Shown here in pieces: positions 3,001 to 48,358 of a stretch of 64,000 bases of DNA; the first letter of the stretch is position 1, and each line of letters begins with the position of its first letter. This DNA is from Phytoseiulus persimilis (Eukaryota > Arthropoda > Arachnida > Mesostigmata > Phytoseiidae), in NCBI GenBank assembly GCA_037576195.1, contig CM075101.1, positions 13,144,001 through 13,208,000 of the forward strand, given 5' to 3'. The notes under the pieces were generated by a model, which was not told the DNA's origin, did not search any database, and was given only the letters and a program-made list of their open reading frames with translations. Both the position numbers and the translations under genes were made by a program.

Positions 3001-5699
3001 GGACTCTATGCTGTTGGTGAATTGGAGATTCGGAAATCTAAAGCGGATTAAATAACTCTAGGTTCTCGCCGAATACGACGAAACGAGCAAACGTAGCTCC
3101 GCTGGGGTTCGCTTCTCGCGTTCTCTTCCATAGGGACCTTACCTATATTGCGGGCTTACGCATGAAATCCGAAGCCTTCTTCAGGCTCGGGGCAACGGAA
3201 GGCAGCAATGTTGTGATGCCGATGAAACGAGATGAGAATTGGAAGGCTGTGGGCCACGGAAGACCCTGCCCGAAGAAGCCAAAGAAAAAGAAAAAACTTG
3301 AAAAACCCCCAGAGAAGAACTGTGGCGATACGTTATCCGCAGTTTTGAGTATGGATAAATGGACACCGGCTATCGATTTCCATTCTGTGTCCTAATTGGC
3401 TTGCATGCTTCACCCTACAGTAGTACACTGCATTTCAAGACGTGTTCAATAAAGGATCGCCGACGATACTGTAACAAAGAACGACGAGAAGATGAAGTCA
3501 TTCATCGCAGACGCGGGATCGCTCTCACCTTGTTCGAAATCTAGTTCAGCTCCCGAACAAATCAAAACGAGAGAACAATCGCTTGCAGAGGACTGCGGAA
3601 AGTCTTGAAAACGCTCCTGCCCAATGGAGCGGGCTGAACGAAAGTTTCCAGACGGAACGGTGACTCTCCCGATCGAAACCGAGAGCGGAATCGCAGTCGC
3701 TTTGTTTCTGCTTGCGCACACTCCATGGTTAGAGTTCGCGGGACATCTGTCAGAGCCAGTGAGGCATGGCGGGAACGATCGCCCACTTCCCGCCAGCTCC
3801 CGTTCTCTTCTGAAAACTCAGATTGAGGGAAACGAGCCACCCGTTGGCCCTCCCGACGCCTATCGGATCTCCCAGTGGCAGCCCGACTCGGTCTTGCGTA
3901 TCGCAATGAGAATTCGAAATCTCGGGCAAATCCGTTCGCTCGACCAAGCCCGGATTCCATTCTGGATTCTGAACACTCATGATGCAGCCACTTGAGTATT
4001 CCAAGCCGCCCGAGCCGCACCTGCCGGGAATATCCATGGGATTAAAGGATCCGCAGGATCAGGCCTATGCAGGGCAAGCGATGAGTAACGTTTGATTGGA
4101 TCTTTCGTTCTGGGCCAGCCGCTGGGAAGACGGAAGTTTGTTTGTTTCTGCAATATTTCTTCAGGCGTGGACTTCAGAGTGCTCCTACTCTCGGGAAGGT
4201 CGAGGTCACAGGACGCGAGAGAAAGCTGCTTCCAAGGGAGCAGGATTGCCCGTCAGCCGAATGTTGCTTCCCCATTAATCACAGAGCCACACACCTCTCT
4301 GTGCCAGGAAGAAACAGAGCGAGGACAAACAGTTCAATCTTGGAAGCTCGCTCAACGAGTCGCACGGGTGTCCATTCCCGATAAAAGCGCTCACGAGCGG
4401 GCACAGCAATCGTCTCCTCCTTTACTCCGCTTCGTGAGGCTTGTTGGAGCTTGGGAGTCGGTCGCAAGGTTCGGTCAATTTTCCTGAGAGGATCGATAGT
4501 TCTGGCTGGAGCTGAGGGCCGTGGCTGTGAGACCCGTGTTATCTGAGGTGTCGAACCCTGCTCGACGGAGCGACCTCGAAAGGAACTCCCAACGGCGGCA
4601 GGCCCTCTTATCGAGAGAGCAGAAACGATATTGGCATCCTTCGACGCTACTACGCCGCGTGATCTGACGCATTTTTGATTTACTGAGCTCACTCTACTAA
4701 GCGACCGAGATGAAGATCTCTGCGAATCCGTGAAAGAGACATTCTACATTTTCGATTTCGGATCCTCTCGATTCCTCGGGGGTATCGCGGGCACGGCTGA
4801 TGAGAGGTGGATGGATGTCGTACAATTTACGCTCTCTGCCTCAGCCCGTTCTTCATGGACGTCGTCTGGGATCCGCATCCCCCCGTGGGATCTGCATCTT
4901 ACGACGCAACAGGTCACGCAGTTTATCATGGCGTCATCACGAAATTCTTGTGCGGAGAAGGCGGCTTCCGATCTCGAAGCTTCGTTCTAGACTCTTCGCT
5001 ACTTCACACGAATCGACAACCAGCTGTGTGCCATGAGTTATCCTATCCTCCTATGGGCAGGACGTTCCGCGATGAGCTTGGTTTATGTCCCCCGAAGAAT
5101 TTCCTTCATTCAGGGGCTGCTTAGCTTGGAATACAATTTCCTGAAAGCTCCTTCCGATTCGGGCTGCAAACGGGCTGCGGCAGCCAGAATTTTTTCAGGG
5201 AAGGAGCCGAATCCCGGGACCGGGAATCCCCGCCGGCTGTTCCATGTAGGCTTTTCCCTGGTGAGCGCTGCGATGACCTGACCATGCTTGGAAGACCCGC
5301 AGCGTGGTATCAAATTCTGGTGTCTGGAAATGCTTCTCCCGGGATCTCAGGCGGGAAAGGGCTCTCAAAATAAGTGTCCTTCAGAGTTCGTGGTCATCCA
5401 GGATTCTCGACAACCCCGGTTCCTAGCTGGCGAGGTCAATCTCTGGAACCAGGGTTCTGCATGACTTGAAACCCGGTTCCTGAAGACCACCGGATCCAAC
5501 GACGTTCGGTTCCGTAATTCCGCGGAGCCGGCTCCAGACCCGGATTTGGAATCACGGAGGTGGTTTCAGGATTATCAGCAGTCGGCTCTTCGCTGGCCCT
5601 GTTCGGGACCGAGGTCTTACGAGAAACCACAAAAAAGCCATATTGAGCGCGACAACCCGAACGAGCGGCCGCCATATCCTCTACGAGATATGGGGCACC
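1..5699. other. No recognisable gene
   Basis: Open frames up to about 150 codons occur on both strands, but none has a known domain, a splice-consistent partner or low-complexity coding bias. Apart from the (CTC)n run, nothing was identified. Confidence 0.6.
1541..1562 (+). repeat. (CTC)n microsatellite
   Basis: About seven perfect CTC/CCT triplets. Confidence 0.9.
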
Positions 5700-6740
5700 G
5701 CCACGGTTAGGGTCCGACAAGCCGAAAATTCGAACCCGAAACGCATGAAGCCGAAAAATCGAGCCCGAAAAGCATGGAGCCGGAAACCCCCCTCTCCCAA
5801 CGGCGGAGTGTTCGGGACTGGTATGACGGGATGGGATTTCTGTATCGTTTCGTCGATTTGTACCTTTGTGAGACTCGTTCGGAACGACTGGGAGACGTTC
5901 TCGGATGAGATGGTGACAACGGCTCAATCTGACTCCAGAGTACGGCGAAACGATGAAAGAACCTTTTTCCCGATTCGCTCCCTGATATAGGACCTTTCGC
6001 ACGAGCGCTTTTCATCAGCGTGTGTATTTACGGGAATGGGTCAATCTTCTAGGCACGCAAAGCGCCTCTGCGCGCTCATACTGGGTCAGGGGCGCCTCCA
6101 ACTCATCATCGTGAAATCATTGACGCCATAGGAACTGATCGTTCGGGTCCAATAGGAACGTATGACTCGTCTGCCGGAGTGCGGGCGATCCTCGTAGTTG
6201 CTCTAGGGACTGATCGCACTACTGCGAGTGGAGCTGGCAAACGCGGATTCCGGTTCAGTCGAGTTCATCTGAGCCTTCAACAGGCAGCAGATGTACTGTG
6301 ACTGCGGAAGAGGGTTTCCATGCCGGTTTTCCCTTTTCGGTTGGAAAGAACAAGGTGTTGTAACAGCGTATTCTGCGAATAGTACCAGAACTGGAGGTGA
6401 AGATTCCTCTTCAGTTCTAGCGGGTTGACCTCGGAGACTTCAAGATTCGCGTTCAGCAGATTGCTTCCTGTAGCAGCTACACCTTTGGTCAGTTCGAACT
6501 AGGGACCGTGGAGGCGGAACAGCGAGGACGTAAGCGAGACAGAAGAAGTAAGCAGGCTGAGCATAACGAAGGTGCAATTCCCCGCTAAACCAGTCCCGAC
6601 CGCTCCGCTGTTGGGAGAGGAGGTTTTCGACTTCACGCTCTTCAACTTCATGCCTTTCAGCTTCATGCTTTTCGGGCTCGATTTTTCGGCTTCATGCATT
6701 TCTGGCTCGATTTTTCGGCATCCAGGGTATACACCACCGC
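5700..6740. repeat. Inverted repeat pair with internal short tandem units (arms about 5700-5860 and 6530-6740)
   Basis: The left arm reads ...CCGAAAAATCGAGCCCGAAA AGCATGGAGC, then CCTCTCCCAACGGCGGAGTG, then CGGGACTGG; the right arm carries the same series in reverse complement. The CCGAAAAATCGAGCCCG unit is itself repeated two to three times (about 29 bp) in each arm. The 670-bp spacer has no recognised gene. It is likely the two ends of an old non-autonomous transposon, or two oppositely inserted copies of a dispersed repeat. Confidence 0.75.
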
Positions 6741-9700
6741 CACGGCACTCTCCATCAACCGACCAGTGAGTTTGAGGGGGTCGCGGGTTTTTTTCACCGA
6801 AAGCGGGAATTTCCGCGATTGTCGCGAATTCCAAGAAAAGCTAGTCTTCGGATTTCTCGGGAATCTCTCAGCCCTATTCCCGATCGATCTCCTGCATCAA
6901 CTCTGAATCACTCCACGTGGGTGGATTTGGGTTCGTGCCCTCTCGGTCAATGCGCACGTAGATCAGAACTACCAGGACCGCTCCAGTATCAACATTAGAT
7001 CAGCATATGATCGATCGACGACAGTTTCTCCGTCCGTCGACTTACCGTCCGGAGAGAGGTAGACGGGAGTTTCGACTCGGAGTCGAGAACTTCTATCGAG
7101 CTCCTCTCCGGTGAAAATTTGGATATATTTGGGGGTACGGCGGAGCGAAGACCGCAACCGGAGAATCGATTCCGACGAATGGTCAACGCGGTCCGCAGCA
7201 ACCTGATTTCCCCCGATCCCTCCTGACCCCGTGGGAGTACCTAACATCACTCCCATTCTGTCCGGATGGCTCTAGAGGTAGAACTCCACAGTACCCAAAT
7301 TGGAACGGAACGATCGCTACGATTTCAGTGGATCAGCGGAAAATTCCATCATCGCTCGAGGATTCAACAGCCAGCTGTAAAGAAAGTGATTCTGGGAAGT
7401 CAACCTATTGCCCTCGATATTTTCGCTGTGGTCATCGTTCGATCAAAGTTGTGTGGTCCAAATCTTGGCAACAATGGAAAGTGTCGGTGCACGGTCTTCT
7501 TCCATCGCATCGTTCGCGGTCAGACGAGAGATCCGCGAGAACCAATCGAATGGTCAAGAATCTTCCGTCTCACGGCTCTGATCATCGAACCCCCGCCAAC
7601 AAGTGGATAGCAGACAGAGAGCATCGTTCCGGGCAGAATATGGCTTGGTGATGTCGTGAAAACTTTGAGACGCGCTTCAGGGAATCGTCCGCTCAAAATT
7701 GACCCACTGTTTCTCCGATTCCATCAGCAGTCCGCGCGTGGGCGTTCTGTGAAAATCCATCCGCTAAGCCATCCAAGAATCAAAGCTACTTGAGGCCTTA
7801 AAAATCGCCCGATCCATCCAAAACGAATCCTCTGATGGCCTATTCGGGCCGCGTATTTGCCTCGGATCGAGCGTTGCACGGTCAATGTGCGGTCAACCTC
7901 CGCATTCTCGCTTCTTCCAGGAGCCCTCTCTGAGTTCCCGGTACTGCTCATCTGACCAAGAGGAACCGACGCCGATTCGCTGGCAAGGACCCCGTTCGAC
8001 ACGCACCTACAGCCCAACAAAGCGGCACTCAAAAGCGCGGACACCACTGTTTCCGCTTTTCTTTCTGCCGCAGTTGTTTGACCCCTGCGCTACAGTCGGA
8101 GTTCGCGGACCTTTCCAGGAATCGAGCGAAGAAACGTTTCGGTACTGCTTCAATCCATTCCCATTGACCTCCACTGATCGGATTTTCCCAATCCATTCCC
8201 TGGTCCGTCGACGAACGCTTTCCTGGTCCGATTCCAGATTCCTGCTGGCCAAGTCTCCCATCCCGAAATCCTCTGCTGACTGTGGCTTTGCCCACTGTCG
8301 CTCTGACTCGTTCGATTGTGTGCCCGCTCGCTAAGCAAGCCGTGACTCTAACGCGGGGACAAGTGCTGCGGAAAAATCTGCTCAGAAGCGGTTAAGTCAA
8401 ACAAATCCGTACCGCCGACGGGAGCAGCAAAAGCCGCGAGAGTCACCCATTGTTTCTCCTGCCGGAATATTGTCACCAACTCCAGAAGATTTGTCTCCCG
8501 TGACTACCGGAGCGAACTGATTACGGAACAATGGCTCGCGGGATGGGGTTCTTCCCGCTGCACATTGAATAACTCACTCAGTTTGCTCATGAGCCATTGT
8601 GACTGCGAGAGTCTGGATCCTAGAGTCACTCTCCGGTGACTCCTCTCGGAAGTCGCCTTCAGAGACAAACAAGCGGATTCAGGGAGTCATCTGTGACTTT
8701 CCGAGTGGAGCCTGGATTAGCGATCCTGGAAGATCAATCAATGACGAACCTGAGGGAATCCCCAGGGATGAGTTTATCCGGGTGCAAGCAATCCCTGACG
8801 AGCAAAAAGGTGGGGCAGATTTCTTGAGGTTTCGTACCAGGATCTCTTTTCCGGGCAATACTCGGCTGTTTCCCAAGTGAGACTGGGAAACCGACGGAAA
8901 CTGGATCACCAACGGGAGGAGCGAAACCTGCAGCAAGTGTTTGACAGGCGCAGGATCTCATTCCGTCGAGAAATATTCAAAAGAGGGGACAGCATGGAAA
9001 CGAGGCTGATACGATCGAAAGACTCGATTGGACAGGTTTCACGATTAGTCATCATCCTTTTACTCATCCCCTCGGCTGGTTCACTGAACTCGTGGACCGA
9101 GTGCTACAAGTAATAAAAAACGCGGAATACCGAAAGGTTCATCATTCTCACTATCTCGCTTGAGGAAACTCGAAGTCTGGTGACTCGATAAGTCGGAAAC
9201 TATCCGGATTTCCGCTCGAAGAGGGAAGGTGTTCGATGGGCCATCTCTTAAGAAATCGAGACTGGTTCCCTCCGGAGAACCCAATTAATACGTCACCAGC
9301 TTTTCATGCTTATACCGCGCGGAATCGCATATCGAGCTATGCTCACATGCACATCCGGCTCCTCTCTGAATTTTGTGATAACGAGGGACAAGTGGTTGGA
9401 GTTTGTATTTGGCCTCGTGGGGAGCACGCGATTGATCGTGGCTCAGGTCGGAAGGCACTGGCTCTGAATTCATTCGATCGCTGTGTTATCGGATGTTGAC
9501 TGCACGGCGTTCTCCGTTTCTGAAGAATCGAGCCGAGGAGAACTCCTCCGGGCCACTGAAAGGCATGTAATGATCCTACCAGTTCGTGAGTCAGGCTTTA
9601 ACGCTGCCGTTCCATTCGGGCCAGTTGGGTTGGCCGCGCGCTATTCAGACCGTGGGTCGGTTTCAGTTGAAAATGACTAACTCACTTGGACGACGGCTAC

Positions 9701-22570: not shown

Positions 22571-24308
22571 CTAGGCGGAAATCCGGAAAGCATTCCCGAA
22601 AACGTGCTCGAATTTCTTTCTCTGGCTGAAAATACGACGCGTAGCTCCCCATCCTGTCAGCTGAGTGTTGATGCAGTAACGGTCTCCGGTATCCTTGTAA
22701 GCCGCCAAGCCGAGAACTAGAGACTGTGCCAAACGTCCGCAAATCATCACCTAAAATGCGGGCACGTCTCCGTGATACTTGCTACGGAAAAGATCATGGC
22801 AACGTAACGTTACGTTATGCAATGTTTCAAAGTATCTGGTATTCAGACGAAGAAATAGTCAGTCTTGGAACCCAAGACTGCAAACCAACTCAAAATGAAC
22901 CAGTCCTCTGGAATCGTTGCATTTACCTCACGTCTTTGCGATTTTCATCTTTGCGTGTTCAACTTACCACGAAAACTTCAATGTCTCCGAAGTCCGACAA
23001 GACGCTGGGCATGCGCTGGGTGTACGCGTCCGCTGCTACTCTGAAGTAATCATCCAGATCGTTCTCCAAGTCTGGCACTGCCGTGGCCAAGTACGCCAAT
23101 GCCACGGCCAGGTCGCAGACGAAGGGCCCACCCTGACACTCGAACAGATCCAAAACGGCTTTCACATGACCATCTTCACCGGTTAAAATGTTTGCGTCGT
23201 TCATGTCTCCGTGTAGAATCTCTGCTTAAATCATGATGCCTTAGCGCGAGCTCAAACTCGAATCCCTATCTTGCTCAGATTTCGGGGTTTGCTGCCATAG
23301 AAGGAATGAAATTTCTCCAAGATACTCACGCCTCTTGCACTTGAGTAGTTTTGGGAGGACTCTTTCCTCGTATTCCGTCGCGATATCCTGAATCAGAGCT
23401 CTATCTTCGGCGTTTTCCAACAGGTCGAGGTATTCAGCAACCCGATGAGTGTTGATCCAGGAGAACAGCGTGTTGCGGCCGCGAACGAGCGGATATTCCG
23501 TTTGTCGTTGGAACACGTCGTGAATTTTCCCAACCAGCTCGCCCCACTCAGAGCTTTGCTGACTTGTCAATTTTCCTTTCTCTAGGACTCTCCCTGAATA
23601 TGGTCACAGCCGCCTTTGAGATTCCGAACGCTGAGCTCTCGGTGCTCGCTTTGAACATCGCCATTTGCTCTTCGGCAGAATTTCAAAGCCGATTCAGCTC
23701 AGGTTCCGGAGAGCGAGTCCACTTGCTCTTGCGAGGATGCATTAGTGAGCTTCGCGCATAAAAGGTCCCCGTGTTGGAAAATTTGAGGCACTCACCGGGA
23801 ATGTAATCGAACAATCTCACGAAACAAGTTTTCTTTCGGTTGCCGACCTGCATTCTGAAATCTGCCATTCGAGCTCCAAATACTGTGTTCAACGGAACCG
23901 GGCAGCAGACCGAACGAGATAAAACGCTCATGAGCTCGTTCATCTCATCTGTAACATTCTGAGAGATATTGAGCGATTCGAGATTCGCGGAATCGTCATT
24001 GAACCACCCAACTTGCCGTGCAATTCTCTGTTCTCGCTACTTTTCCAATTCATGATTTTCAGGAGCAGTTCACGGCCGTCAGCTTTTGTCTGGAAAGAAT
24101 GAGAAGATGTTGCTCTGACTGAATCTATCCGACTTTGGAATCATCCACATAGGATGCAAAAAGTTTTCTGGCCTACCCTGACAAGGAAGTTCTGGTCGGA
24201 GAAGCTCACCAGAGCTTTGATGCTCTCTACCTCTTCAATTTCATAGTTCTTTCTCAGGACTCTTCCGATTTCATCCAGAGATAGCGAGGGTCTTTCAACG
24301 CTGACCAT
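22571..24308 (-). CDS. Hydroxylysine kinase-like protein (HYKK/AGPHD1 family), complete, 6 exons, 351 aa
   Basis: Family members (APH/choline-kinase fold) phosphorylate 5-hydroxy-L-lysine with GTP in lysine/collagen breakdown. Exons on the minus strand: 24308-24177, 24089-24017, 23948-23796, 23593-23330, 23221-22968, 22750-22571; phases agree throughout. The N-terminal part matches the family pattern of a Y-x-(9)-LVSFSDQNFLVR strand; next come LLLKIMNWKSS, the VRLFDYIPG segment, YPLVRGRN, and the Brenner-type catalytic motif HGDMNDAN (211-218; D213 the expected base, N218 a metal ligand). The second metal-binding loop reads LDLFECQGG (D232), where the family normally has IDFGD. The C-terminus (AQSLVLGLAAY ... 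TGW) also fits the family. Intron 2 has a GC donor (GCAAGT). The human protein is about 373 aa, so the length is normal. The altered D232 loop leaves activity uncertain. Confidence 0.9.
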
Positions 24309-25141
24309 GGTGTATTGCGCCCTCTGGAGCCTGAGCTGGCACGTAATCAACACCTCCAAGATCCTGTTCAAACGAACAAACAATGTCACACCACTCCTCG
24401 TAAAATCACTACTCGATTCACGATCGTTCACGAAACCAGCTAACGCTGACTAAGAAAACCGACAGGTGGGACGAAACGCCTTGCAGGCCGCCCGTTAGCA
24501 ATGCTGCAATTAAAGAACTCTTTGATTGCAGTCGACAGCGAGATATATCCAGGCTCAGAGGTTGCAAATCTCTGGAAGGGGGCAGAAGCGTCATAAAATG
24601 TAACAAGCTCTTCCATATTTTACCACTCAAGTACATAGATACGGCGGATATATTGAACACGAACCGTCAGGCAATTTCGATGGTGACAGAACCTAGTTAT
24701 GAACTATCTGTCGACGATAGAAACAGCGCCATCGCGATAGCGGCTTCCAAAGTCTCCTAGGACAGGCGAATCGATGGATTCCGGACTCGACCGGAGCCCT
24801 CAGTGAGCTTCCTGAGAGGAGTATATCTCGTTAATGATCTCCTTGTGTCCTGATAGATCTCAGAGAATTTGCCGCTGGAGGTGCGCCGGTATGCCAGAAA
24901 TCCGTCCGTCGTGTATGATCACCAAGACGCGAATCTTCTAACTATACCTCTGGTTGTGAGAGTGGTTCGATGCATCGGGAAGACTGTAGTGACGATTCCC
25001 GCGAGATTCCGTTGTAGAAGCAACTTTAAAGTTTGTACCGTTGGCCACAGAGTGCTAGTCCTGAGAGGAGGACTCAGGCGGGACTTGCATCCCTTTAAAA
25101 ACAGATGAGCAATACAGGGTGGCTTTTTCGAGGCTCGGGAG
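24309..25141. other. 5' flank of the hydroxylysine-kinase gene; nothing recognised
   Basis: Intergenic DNA between the kinase start codon and the palindromic element. It should contain the kinase promoter, but no TATA box or initiator stands out. Confidence 0.5.
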
Positions 25142-26395
25142 AGTTTTGGCCGCGACTTCGTTAACTCTTGGATTATTTCCTCACAAATCGAAGAGTGGTA
25201 GCTCGAGGAACCCGTAATCATTTCGACTGTTCGTTGCAGTGAATATGATGGAAGCTCAGGCCAGGAGGTCATATCGAAAAATGACCCATTTCTTTCGAGG
25301 TCTTCCGGGAAGTGATCGAAGAGATTTCAAATTGCATCGGATCGGACGCGCCGGGGTCGCGTTATAAAAAAATCGGAGGGATGGGGAGCCTACTGAGAAC
25401 GACGAAGGGTTGTCACGGACTAAGAATTGAGGAGGAACTCCATGAAATTGGGAACAGGTTCAGGAAATTAGGGAGTCCTCCGTAATGAATGCTCCGGAAT
25501 CTACGCGCGAAAGCAAGCCGGCCACTGGTCAGAGAACCCATTGTAGTTATTTAGACGACTCGAAAAAGTGCGAGCGATCGTATCCACACCTTTTTCATGG
25601 CCCCGCCAATCTCGTTTCCCTCGCATTTCCTCCCGTTCTCAACGAGGCGGGATTGAAGGTATTCCTCCCCGATTAAAATTGCTCGGAAGTGGCCGAATTA
25701 TCTGAATATTGAGTTTCCGGGTCCAGGCGACGATTTTCAAATCTCACCGAGAATCAGCCTCATCCAGCTTTCCACCGTGGGCTCCCAGAAAGTGCCCCTA
25801 ACACCAAGGAAAGGGTCTCGGTACTTTTGGCCTTGGGTCGGGGATTCGAATGAGATATATTGTGGCGGATACCCCATCCCTGGAGAAGACTCTCTGTCCA
25901 GTCGGCGGGGTCTTAGCTGCCTTGGTTTCTTTTTTTATAGCATGAAACATTTTCTGGACCGATGAAAGCCGAGCGAGATTTGGAAACTCAAAATGCTCAT
26001 ATCTCCGTTATCTGAAGGGGTTCAGAGCTCATAAAGTGGGTTCTGGAAAGCTCGTGAATCCAGCTTTCCGATGCGTCTTCCAAGTTCTCCAACGATCAGT
26101 TTGAATACTCTCAAAATGATCAACTTCAAAGTGAATGTCTCTAACCCACTTCCTGGAGATTGACCATTTTCTAGTTTGTGTCATATTATGCTCCCCTTCA
26201 GTGCGATAGACAGATCGAAAAAAAATATTTCGGGGGTCAAAGTTAAAAAACCAAAAAAAAACGGTCGATGGTCACCCTGAATTCATCGAATGCATGTCGA
26301 ACTTATGCTTGAACTCCATAATATTCGATGGCGGAAGGCCCCGAGCCAGAGAAAATCATATTCTGAGCCGTGTAACACACGGAATCAGCCGCTCC

Positions 26396-26866
26396 CGGAA
26401 TTACCCGCCCAGACCGTCAAAAGTATGGTCAGGCTGGTTCCGGAATAACCCCTCCAGCTTTTAAAAAGTACGGTCAGATTGTTTTGGGGTTTGTACATGA
26501 TCGACCAATCTGACCTTACTTTTTACAAGTCTGGAGGGGTGATTCCGTGACCAAACTCACCATTACTTTCCAAGTCTGGAGAGGTGATCCCGAGACCCAT
26601 CTGACCATTACTTTCCAAGTCTGTAGGGGTGATTCCGGGCCTAATCTGACCATACTTTTTAAAAGCTGGATGGGGTGATTCTGGAACCAGTCTGGCCATA
26701 CTTATCAAGAGCTGGAGGGGTGATTCTGGAACCAGTCTGGCCATACTTATCAAGAGCTGGAGGGGTGATTCTGGAACCAGTCTGGCCATACATTTGGGGG
26801 TCTGGGTGGGCGATTCCGGAATCGATCTGACCAAACTTCTGGGGGTCTGAGCGGCTGAGTCCGTGT
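26396..26866. repeat. 45-bp minisatellite, about 8 copies on one side and 2 inverted copies on the other side of the palindrome centre
   Basis: The right part (about 26499-26860) has about eight units of 45-46 bp, each with the pattern GATTCTGG..CCAGTCTGGCCATAC..AGCTGGAGGGGT. Two neighbouring units (26681-26770) are nearly identical, which indicates recent expansion. The left part (26396-26490) holds two units in the opposite orientation. The unit is divisible by three, so the minus strand stays open for about 130 codons as a 15-residue peptide repeat (MARLVPESP...). This is likely a by-product rather than a gene. Confidence 0.9.
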
Positions 26867-27795
26867 CTTCCACGGCTAAGAATATGATTTGCTCTGGCTC
26901 GGCGCCTTCCACCATCAAATATTCTGGAGTTTGATATTTGGAGCATGAAGTTCGATGAATTCAGGGTGAGCAACGACAGTTTCCTAGTTTTTCAGCCTCG
27001 ACCCCCTCGTTCTGTTTATGGCATTGTGCTCGCACTGAAGGGGAGCATGATATGGCACAAACTAGAAGGTGGTCAACCTCCAGGAAGTGGGCTAGATATA
27101 TTTACTTTGGAGTTGGTCATTTTGAAGGTATTCAAATTGATCGTAGAAAAACTCTGGAGAACGCATCGGGAAGCTGGATTCACGAGCTTTCCAAAACCCA
27201 CTTTACGAGCTCTGAACCTCTTCAGATAGCGGAGATATGAGCATTTCGAGTCTCCAAATCTCGCTCGGTTCTCATTGGTCCAGAAGATGTTTCATGCTAT
27301 AAAAAAAAACAGGGCAGCTAGGAGCCCGCCGACTGGACAGAGAGTGTTCTCTTGAAATGGGGTATCCGCCACAATATATCTTATTCGAATCCCCGACCCG
27401 AAGCCGAAAGTGGCTAGGAACTGCCGAGATCCTTTTCGATAAGAACGATTGCCATTATCCGAGGAGTCGAGATAACTTCAATCGGTTTTCGGACTAGTGT
27501 CCGGCTTCGTTTTAAACGTCGAACGCGACCCCCGCGAATTCGATTCGATGAAATCTGACGTTTCCATGATCACTTTGAAGAGGACCGCGAAAAAAATGTC
27601 ATTTCCGGAACCACCTCCTGGCCGCAAGTTCATCATATCCGCTCCGAGTGAATAAATGCAAAATGACCTCGGAATCCCCTGACGACCACTTTCTGATTCT
27701 TGGAGAAAAAAATCAGAGAATTGACAAAGGGTCTAGCCGGTTAGGTGCCCCACCTCGACGGATCTTCTTGAAAACGACAGGATCGTGTTCTCTAT

Positions 27796-28002
27796 GTGGA
27801 AGAACGTATTCCTGAAGTTTTCAGCCTTTTCCGTTACCTAGATCCAAATCTATTAACAGTAATTAAAAATAGTTCAATTAAATCCGCATGGTCAAGAGCA
27901 AACTTAAAATCGTTATATCTCGAGAACCGCTGGGCGTACAGCGTCGAACGACAACTTTTTGGAAAGCTCTCATCGAGGCCTATCCTCTCATATAGCCAGT
28001 GA
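27796..28002 (+). other. Open frame inside the left terminal inverted repeat, mirrored in the right arm (29043-29315, minus)
   Basis: Both arms contain the same reading frame in opposite directions (starts MEERIPEVFSLFRYLDPN), 68 codons on the left and 90 on the right. Most differences between the two are few and scattered. It may be no more than an open stretch of repeat DNA, since conservation here is explained by arm similarity. No domain is recognised. Confidence 0.3.
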
Positions 28003-28244
28003 TCAGATCGCATGATTTCGAAGGCATCAAAAATCGAGGGTTTCCCAATTAAGACGGTTGATACCCTTCCCGTGGCCGGCCAAGAATCGGCGAAAACCAG
28101 AATGTAGCCCCAAGTACCCTCTTCCTACTCAAGAATTTTCATCCAAATCGAAGCTTAGGCTTCGGAGTTATCGCTCCGAGTAGGTAACCGATCAGACCCC
28201 TCTCTCACTTTGGAGTCCGGAAATTCGTCTCAAACGCGCTTGAA

Positions 28245-28781
28245 ATGTTCGAAATATTGCAAAAATCTCTGAGCCACATCCTGGAGGATCAAACGGAAGA
28301 GTTATCGGGTGTGTGGGCTTCACCATTTCGTTTCCCTCAGAACCAGGTTGACTCATTGTCAGAGAAAAGTGAACATAGATTCCACTCGGATCGTCTGAGT
28401 GGTTTCGATTCTGTCGACACATCATTTCACTTCGCCGTCTGTCAGCTCGGAATGCCCTCTACTGGTCACCGTATGAGATTCCAGCTGTTGTCTAAACGGC
28501 GAACCGTCTTCGTCAATCCCTTGCAGGTGTTCATCCGATACGTGCCTTGCCAGAACGATCTCCGAGAGATTTTGGCCTTCTGGTGCGAATGCCCAAATGG
28601 TAATCGGACCGTAGGATGCTGTGCCCACGTGGCTGCTGCCGTGTACTACCTAGCTCTGGCTAGGTACCAGCTCCCGATTCAGCGACCAGCGGCCGAACTC
28701 TCGAATCTATTTCTCGTTTCGGAGGCCGAGACAGGAATCTACGCCCCCAAGAAATCGGAAGAAAGCGATCTCGAGGGTTGA
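28245..28781 (+). CDS. SWIM-type zinc-finger protein encoded by the transposon, 178 aa
   Basis: Open frame beginning at the inner edge of the left inverted repeat and ending about 50 bp before the right one. Residues 114-128 form a SWIM pattern, C-x-C-x(8)-CC-x-H (WCECPNGNRTVGCCAH), followed by the helix VAAAVYYLALARY; this motif is common in transposon-derived arthropod proteins and MULE transposases. The first 60 residues show no known domain. The start may be internal: the ATG lies in the repeat arm and could be an exon fragment of a longer ancestral transposase whose catalytic part has been lost. Function now is unknown. Confidence 0.65.
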   Translation: MFEILQKSLSHILEDQTEELSGVWASPFRFPQNQVDSLSEKSEHRFHSDRLSGFDSVDTSFHFAVCQLGMPSTGHRMRFQLLSKRRTVFVNPLQVFIRYVPCQNDLREILAFWCECPNGNRTVGCCAHVAAAVYYLALARYQLPIQRPAAELSNLFLVSEAETGIYAPKKSEESDLEG

Positions 28782-29480
28782 GGATCGCTCAGGAGAGAAA
28801 ATAAAGCAGGAAAATACCTCCTGGATGTGGCACAGCGATTTTTGCAAAATTTTGAACGTTTCAAGCGCGTTTGAGACGAATCTCCGGACTCCAAAGTGAG
28901 AGAGGGGTCTGATCGGTTACCTACTCGAAGCGATAACTCCGAAGGCTAAGCTTCGATTTGGATGAAACTTCTTGAGTAGGAAGAGGGTACTCGGGGCTAC
29001 ATTCTGGTTTTCGCCGATTCTTGGCCGGCCACGGGAAGGGTATCAACCGTCTAAATTGGTAAACCCTCGATTTTTGATGCCTTCGAAATCATGCGATCTG
29101 CTCACTGAGTATTGGATATATGAGAAGATAGCCCTCGATGAGAGCTTTCCAAAAAGTTGTAATTCGACGCTGTACGCCCAGCGGTTCTCGAGATATAACG
29201 ATTTTAAGTTTGCTCTTGACCATGCGGATTTAATTGAACTATTTTCAATTAATGTTAATAGATTTGGATCTAGGTAACGGAAAAGGCTGAAAACTTCAGG
29301 AATACGTTCTTCCACATAGAGAACACGATCCTGTCATTTTCAAGAAGATCGGTGGAGGTGGGGCACCTAACCCTACCTTATCCGGCTAGACCCTTTGCGG
29401 CCAAAACACGTTCGGACTCGGGAATTCCCAACTTAGAAATGCCACAAACCAAGTTCTCGAGGAACCTGCTCTAACATCAT

Positions 29481-29621
29481 TCCGCTGATTGATCAAAGCG
29501 CAGTAACGACGAGACGTCATCAGAGTTATATCCCCGGCGTCTCTGACACGCTTCCGCTGATTGATCAAAGCTCAGTAACGACCAGACGTCATCAGAGTTC
29601 TAACCCGGGTGTCTATGAAAT
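29481..29621. repeat. Tandem direct duplication, two 69-bp copies with 72-bp period
   Basis: Copy A is 29481-29549 and copy B is 29553-29621. Both start TTCCGCTGATTGATCAAAGC and contain AGACGTCATCAGAGTT, with roughly ten differences. Each copy carries a CRE-like core (GACGTC) and the palindrome TTGATCAA. It lies just outside the right end of the palindromic element. Confidence 0.85.
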
Positions 29622-47200: not shown

Positions 47201-48305
47201 TGTAATGCTGGGAAATAACTCCGAACAGGAGAATCCTCAATCCACACGCGCACTTCCAAACCGTTGGCACTATAAGTTGTTGCGGGGGTCCTTCCTCTAT
47301 TCCTGTGTGTAGCTCGAGAATCGAGAGCGATCGAGGCAAACTAACGGGGTGGGAAGATGTAACGTTTCTGAGGGAGACCCCACCATACTGTCGGATTTGA
47401 GGATCACGAGGGGCCTGAAACTGTCCCTCGGATGGACTCTTTGGGAGTCTGAGGTCATTCCTTGACAAGATCCCTTGGGACTTTCAGCAGCCGTAGCGAA
47501 TATCGAAGCAGTTCCACGACTCGATGTGTTGATCATAATAGAGAGTCACTTCCCGAGTATTCAATTTGAACATTCGACAAGGCTCACCAAAATCAAGCAA
47601 TTCATTGGTTTGATCGTGAGCGGGTGGTTTTCAGTCTCCGGAGTGAGCAGCTTCTTCGCGAAAGTGCACAACCGGGAACGTAGAATGGGTCGGGCAATGA
47701 CGCCAGTCGAGGAAGTTAAGGGAATTCCCAGTCGAGAAAACGTGTTCCCAGTGCCGGCTGAGTTCGTTACCATGCCGTTCCAGGTAGCATAAGGGCTGAT
47801 CGGGGATCAAATAACTGTTCGGTGTCACGAAATCAAACACAGTATGAAGTCAGAGGCGATTCAAGAAAGATCTGTCATTGGTGCGGAATCGGACGATTTA
47901 AGGGATGGAACGTGAATCCGGGAGATGTGACCCGGTCCTCCATGACATTTTGTCTACGGTGTCGGCGTTGCGGAGGAAGGAAGAGCTGTTGCGGACAGCT
48001 GGACGCTTCTTGCCCCGCACTCTCGAACAGCGTGCAACCCAGGGACATGGCCGGTTTATTGCGTCTCTTCTGATGCGTTGAGATGCCGCTTCCGGATCGG
48101 GTGTCGTTACAACCGTCCACATATGACGAGCCGGCTTGGGACAAATATTTTCACTGAAGCAGAAGTTTCGGGAAAAACGGCAGGAGCATAATGGTGAAGG
48201 TAAGGGAGCATCGATCTGGAAGCTTCCAGTCGGCGAAACGAAGTCGCTGACCACCCGAGCAATGGAGATGAATGCTGCATTTCCAAATGGAACGGTTCGA
48301 TTGAG

Positions 48306-48358
48306 AGCTCCTGGAAAGCTCCTTGAAAGCTCCTGGAAAGCTCCTTGAAAGCTCCTGG
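48306..48358 (+). repeat. 11-bp tandem repeat (AAGCTCCTGGA/AAGCTCCTTGA alternating)
   Basis: Five 11-bp units in which two variants alternate, so the true period is 22 bp. This shows that the last duplication copied two units at once. Confidence 0.85.

Follow-up and report, generated by a model that had tools for sequence, protein, structure and literature searches.

A palindromic nest best read as three layers, with two provisional Spy-type insertions, in a genomic stretch of the mite Phytoseiulus persimilis

The 64,000-nt stretch of Phytoseiulus persimilis contig CM075101.1 analysed here (the window, to whose positions all coordinates refer) holds a cluster of nested inverted repeats between 25143 and 29407. 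Self-comparison recovers two strong inverted-repeat pairs, 27725-28287 against 28817-29397 (92.8% identity over 581 columns, E=0) and 25823-26484 against 26730-27411 (79.8% over 694 columns), together with weaker outer matches of 25243-25363 to 27522-27638 and of 25515-25561 to 27464-27507. These are best read as three layers, E1, E2 and E3, and not two, with E2 being an independent insertion whose termini are of the same type as those of E3. With divergence taken as the Kimura two-parameter distance (K2P) between the two arms of the single copy of each element analysed, the arm alignments yield the non-overlapping values 0.044 ± 0.009 for E3 (559 columns), 0.144 ± 0.018 for E2 (558) and 0.342 ± 0.042 for E1 (291); the preceding alignments of similar stretches had yielded 0.051, 0.144 and 0.306, respectively. 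Taken alone, the nesting is very probably correct. A single locus would then preserve three dated insertions, in which the intact arm of E1 substitutes for the empty site of E3, the youngest.

The oldest layer, E1 (25143-29407), is a palindrome with arms of about 300 bp and ends GTTTTGGCCGC. Its left arm (25143-25584, forward strand) aligns with 27438-27722 in three blocks at 70%, 75% and 73% identity over ungapped columns, namely 25163-25223 (42 of 60 columns identical), 25243-25363 (88 of 117) and 25510-25584 against 27438-27512 (55 of 75, gap-free), and the two E1 blocks compared for divergence are concordant (K2P 0.345 and 0.33). Local alignment gives scores of 43 for the outer end (best shuffle 36), 70 for the middle (42) and 148 for the distal region as a whole (66), none of them reached in 1000 dinucleotide shuffles. 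The main part of the right arm (27436-27725, reverse strand) is interrupted by E3, beyond which lie its final 11 bp, GCGGCCAAAAC (29397-29407, reverse strand), the complement of 25143-25153. The outer end has no other site in the window at up to one mismatch; two or more such 11-mer matches also arise in 35 of 100 shuffles, and its weight therefore lies in its positions and not in its count. The original prediction had named beforehand a failure of 25142-25800 to align with 27446-27724 as what would refute it, and the two regions do align, in the three blocks above, better than all 1000 shuffles. It had also held that the outer-end sequence resumes right after the inner element: the complement of GTTTTGGCCGC is there, with its first base at 29397 instead of 29398, and this G29397 pairs also with C27725.

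The remainder of the E1 left side is unpaired. About 146 bp of the left arm (25364-25509) have no right-arm counterpart, the left arm having either gained sequence by insertion or kept what the right arm lost by deletion, and a single-copy loop (25585-25809) extends as far as the E2 insertion site; no convincing partner was found on the right for either stretch. The unpaired left sequence shows no internal inverted repeat (score 18; best shuffle 27), and 25100-25830 folded as DNA does no better than its shuffles, 18 of 20 being at least equal. A candidate target-site duplication of E1, CTCGGGA, lying 2 and 9 bases from the ends, was rejected as too weak, since 3.8% of random pairs reach it. 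E1 is described here as a foldback-like element, unclassified as to superfamily.

E2 (25813-27432) is a palindromic element of 1620 bp, with left end GGGTCTCGG and right end GGATCTCGG in reverse complement, so that the forward strand reads AAA-GGGTCTCGG...CCGAGATCC-TTT. Its K2P was computed on 25813-26394 against 26850-27432; the centre is occupied by a minisatellite of 45-bp units (26503-26838, 7.4 copies), inverted copies of which also lie in the left arm at 26395-26484. E3 (27729-29393), of 1665 bp, consists of inverted repeats of 559 and 577 bp (27729-28287 and 28817-29393) with ends GGGTCTAGCC, reads AAA-GGGTCTAGCC...GGCTAGACCC-TTT on the forward strand and breaks into the right arm of E1, leaving 11 bp on the outer side. 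Beyond their ends the arms of E2 and E3 share no convincing similarity (local scores of 27 and 19, where the best shuffles reach 28 and 27). Folded as RNA, E2 reaches -1075.7 kcal/mol against -471 to -497 in four mononucleotide shuffles, and 492 of its 685 pairs join bases over 500 nt apart; E3 reaches -1181.7 kcal/mol against -486 to -504 in as many shuffles, with 538 of 701 pairs of this kind. The alignment of the inner arms, reported above at 92.8% over 581 columns, and the capacity of the arms to form very large hairpins are both as originally predicted.

Between its arms E3 carries an open reading frame (ORF) of 178 aa (28245-28781, forward strand), whose ATG lies in the left arm and whose stop falls 36 bp before the right arm. 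The predicted product contains all four ligands of a SWIM zinc finger (C114-x-C116-x9-C126-x-H128) and matches Pfam PF04434 (SWIM) at E=0.0026 and 17.7 bits, below the curated cut-off of 19.6; its predicted structure (mean predicted local distance difference test score 34.1) is useless. A Pfam scan of 25143-29407, covering 56 stop-to-stop ORF pieces each 45 aa or longer, returned four families at E<=0.1: PHF12_MRG_bd (0.0022), SWIM (0.003), ATP-synt_J (0.016) and Orthoreo_P10 (0.051). In a separate Pfam search a PHF12_MRG_bd match fell on the ORF over the E2 minisatellite. Because this unrelated family scores similarly, the SWIM match rests more on the ligand pattern than on its E-value. There is a real, if less than even, chance that the ORF was captured as a fragment of a host gene, or is a fortuitous frame, and is uninformative about the transposase of the element. 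The sub-threshold score, the similar E-value of PHF12_MRG_bd in another piece of the region, an ATG-initiated ORF of equal or greater length in 3 of 300 dinucleotide shuffles of E3 and the blank searches for relatives all fit this possibility; the complete C-x-C-xn-C-x-H set of metal ligands and the fit of the ORF between the arms stand against it. As to relatives, tblastn in phages gave no match and the PDB none to E 10, while a pattern search matched 4 stretches in viral_contigs and 43 in genome_contigs, of which none was confirmed; two SWIM-like DNA patterns had no match in viral_contigs, and a 24-mer from the E3 arms had none in viral_contigs or genome_contigs. These blanks mean little because the collections contain few or no animals.

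If made, the SWIM-type protein of E3 is probably either what is left of a transposase tail or an accessory protein that binds DNA. Invertebrate proteins that combine a DDE_Tnp_4-like domain with a SWIM tail of this type exist, a further point against a captured or fortuitous frame. A literature search returned no paper with both DDE_Tnp_4 and SWIM, which is not proof of their absence from print. One review, in the part available, has both Spy and SWIM, the latter for plant MULE-derived proteins only (PMC8616336).

The separation of E2 from E1 is supported first by the geometry of the locus. On the right, E1 homology reaches 27438 without a gap, with two bases left before the TTT at the edge of the E2 region, whereas on the left 225 bp (25585-25809) without a convincing partner intervene between the end of E1 homology and the start of E2; the point where one layer of divergence gives way to the other falls at a transposon-like terminus. 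The mismatch rate is higher outside E2 (69 of 261 columns) than within it (71 of 550; Fisher P 3.9e-6), and a stricter count restricted to the two best outer blocks gives 40 of 167 against the same inner figure (P 9e-4). One could instead envisage only two layers, a single palindrome at 25143-29407 whose arms measure about 1.3 kb and whose only interruption is E3, in which gene conversion or constraint near the loop keeps the inner arms alike, and the unpaired left stretches are insertions or right-arm deletions. The arms of E1 and E2 are indeed collinear and nested, divergence along the combined outer arms is better described by a linear trend than by a constant rate (log-likelihoods of -386.5 and -392.8), and a single change point is best placed at 25352/25353, inside E1, and not at 25810. 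Yet a step model surpasses the trend (-381.1 against -386.5), divergence is flat along E2 (Spearman P 0.20) and alike in both E1 blocks, and a two-layer history requires a 225-bp indel to lie exactly next to a terminus similar to the two ends of E3. The position of the change point is given no weight because the alignment behind it included forced columns in unpaired stretches, and the structural evidence, that is, the stop of homology at 27438 and the extra 225 bp on the left, is stronger than the change-point argument. We accordingly consider the two-layer history quite improbable.

With E2 recognized as a separate insertion, the simplest history would place it at the junction of the E1 loop and right arm. 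The original prediction had treated the outer arms as one palindrome; the arms within 25813-27432 differ by a K2P of 0.144 against 0.342 outside, and E1 and E2 seem to have been merged in it. Its central claim, that an older palindrome is interrupted by a younger long-arm element with a SWIM-like ORF, agrees with the order given by the arm divergences: E1 does precede E3, while the supposed outer palindrome appears itself to comprise two elements, of which only the flanking pieces, E1, are old.

The flanks of the two younger elements, which the original prediction did not mention, point to a Spy-like mode of insertion. Both E2 and E3 are flanked by AAA (25810-25812 and 27726-27728) and TTT (27433-27435 and 29394-29396), all on the forward strand, which we infer to be the halves of their target sites. 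In the window the exact 9-mer AAAGGGTCT is present in only three copies, one at the left end of E2 and one at each end of E3, and the right end of E2, AAAGGATCT, departs from it by one difference; the significance of the 9-mer lies in this position at the termini and not in its count. No target-site duplication was found at either element. For direct repeats of 8-11 bp, the best matches at E3 (offsets -8 to +8) are 3/8, 4/9, 4/10 and 5/11, none at half, and those at E2 are 4/8, 5/9, 4/10 and 6/11; a three-base duplication at the inferred ends matches at 0 of 3 positions in both E2 and E3 (AAA against TTT). When the flanks of E3 are rejoined and compared with the opposite arm of E1, the alignment that retains AAA and TTT crosses the junction free of gaps (195.5 against 167). 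A longer rejoined stretch fits the E1 left arm best with six junction bases kept (448), followed by the exact AAATTT (439) and by none (421.5). In a search for other inverted ends of the form AAAGGG...CCCTTT, the best besides E3 reached 14/18, within the range of 60 control 6-mers.

These features recall Spy, a member of the PHIS superfamily, which has been described as having a strong preference for AAATTT and no target-site duplication (PMC4482050), and as lying between AAA and TTT with inverted repeats of 5-691 bp (PMC11304231, section 2.1). E2 and E3 share with it the flanks, the missing duplication, terminal inverted repeats (TIRs) of several hundred base pairs, as in some Spy members (467 bp in cgSpy), and a total length within the published 1165-5910 bp of intact Spy elements. 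Published hosts of Spy belong to Arthropoda, Cnidaria and Mollusca (PMC4482050; PMC11304231). E2 and E3 differ from Spy in the minisatellite core of E2, in the separate SWIM-type ORF of E3, undescribed for Spy in the available parts of the two accounts, and in lacking a DDE transposase, which in autonomous Spy is of the PHIS type and exceeds 500 aa. Our best reading, held provisionally, is that E2 and E3 are long-TIR elements of Spy type. The full account, in which an old palindrome, E1, was later hit by E2 and E3 as non-autonomous Spy-type elements, has in our estimate a probability of roughly 0.65, its weaker part being the Spy assignment and not the nesting.

Besides the change point discussed above, several results weigh against this account. 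Three or more copies of AAAGGGTCT also turn up in 7 of 100 shuffles, making the count by itself unremarkable. In the rejoined-flank alignment, 352 of 2000 random 6-mers score as well as AAATTT, so this proxy for an empty site backs the length of six and hardly the letters, and keeping 4+2 junction bases scores slightly above 3+3. AAA and TTT being complementary, the inverted repeat may equally well extend three bases further out and include them. Both published descriptions assign Spy a single transposase ORF, which is of DDE type and has no accessory protein beside it (PMC4482050, section 11), and the word SWIM is absent from the main texts of both (PMC4482050; PMC11304231). The collections searched returned no relatives of the E3 ORF or arms. 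Finally, none of the 56 ORF pieces contains a DDE transposase domain, on account of which the E2 and E3 copies would be non-autonomous. The Spy assignment is provisional because this transposase was sought in the two copies and not found; as non-autonomous copies lack it by definition, the result bars only calling E2 or E3 autonomous Spy elements.

Another possibility is that E2 and E3 are Mutator-like elements (MULEs), or Phantom elements in particular, which have lost target-site duplications of 8-11 bp. Long TIRs are common ground, and among MULE groups SWIM fingers have been reported, as have a minisatellite in Rehavkus and, in Phantom, minisatellites together with TIRs of 18-613 bp (PMC6446971). 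The Tm1 Mutator/foldback family of root-knot nematodes (Meloidogyne) has a foldback-like shape with composite TIRs and 9-bp duplications, and a nested insertion was seen in one family member (PMC3169594). The other foldback-like element of the window, at 5707-6734, likewise has a flanking 11-bp direct repeat. In contrast, the 8-11-bp duplication expected of Mutator-like elements is seen at neither E2 nor E3, even though the E3 arms are only 4% diverged and a duplication should remain recognisable; that both elements should have lost it while retaining the same ends and their AAA/TTT flanks is less likely. Unlike in Tm1, 9-bp duplications and 14-bp TIR repeat units are both absent from E2 and E3, and the 56 ORF pieces include no MULE DDE transposase. 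On balance, a Mutator-like origin is very improbable. PIF/Harbinger, ISL2EU, Pangu and Nuwa were set aside, as the duplications of 2-3 bp reported for them (TWA, AT, ANT, CWG, TNA; PMC4482050) do not occur at flanks of AAA and TTT with 0 of 3 bases matching.

If E2 and E3 are indeed Spy-type elements, the locus may have been built as follows. The arms of E1 would have grown dissimilar over a long period before E2 inserted into E1 at the junction of loop and right arm, with E3 probably arriving later still, 11 bp from the outer end of the E1 right arm. A Spy (PHIS) transposase encoded elsewhere in the genome would bind the long inverted repeats of E2 and E3 in trans, excise the element and join it between the AAA and TTT of an AAATTT target; such joining, proceeding without staggered repair, would leave no target-site duplication. 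E2 and E3 would then exemplify a non-autonomous, long-arm form of Spy overlooked by transposase-based searches, and the authors of PMC4482050 concede that non-autonomous copies may have been missed. The zinc-finger ORF might in that case encode a control protein of an element that already serves as a gene-transfer tool (PMC11304231). More speculatively, and in our view doubtful, a Spy lineage might spread as a long hairpin with its own free-standing SWIM protein, which would be a second Spy gene or else a transposase tail turned regulator or repressor. Were this so, that protein would break the published rule of one transposase and no accessory protein for Spy.

Several features lie outside the nest. 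About 60 bp beyond the right end of E1 begins a 72-bp tandem duplication (29469-29618) with two copies about 86% identical. On the other side, 22959-23204 (reverse strand) weakly matches an APH-like kinase (PF01636, E 8.6e-05; 22.8 bits, where the cut-off is 23.2) and may be one exon of a kinase gene of the host next to the nest. The window has no Rfam matches and no tRNA. Four of the seven window ORFs scanned match Pfam families (matrixin, DnaJ, mitochondrial carrier and, weakly and below the cut-off, Na/Ca exchanger), and reading frames are broken as by introns, both in keeping with animal DNA. The separate foldback-like element at 5707-6734 has arms at 5719-5830 and 6581-6719 with tandem units of 29 and 15 bp, and is flanked by exact 11-bp direct repeats, CACCGCCACGG (5696-5706 and 6735-6745), an identity reached by none of up to 2000 random flank pairs. 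In its arm tandem units and 11-bp flanking repeats it stands nearer than E2 and E3 to Tm1 as described from root-knot nematodes. A short tandem array of 11- or 22-bp units, AGCTCCTGGAA, occupies 48301-48358.

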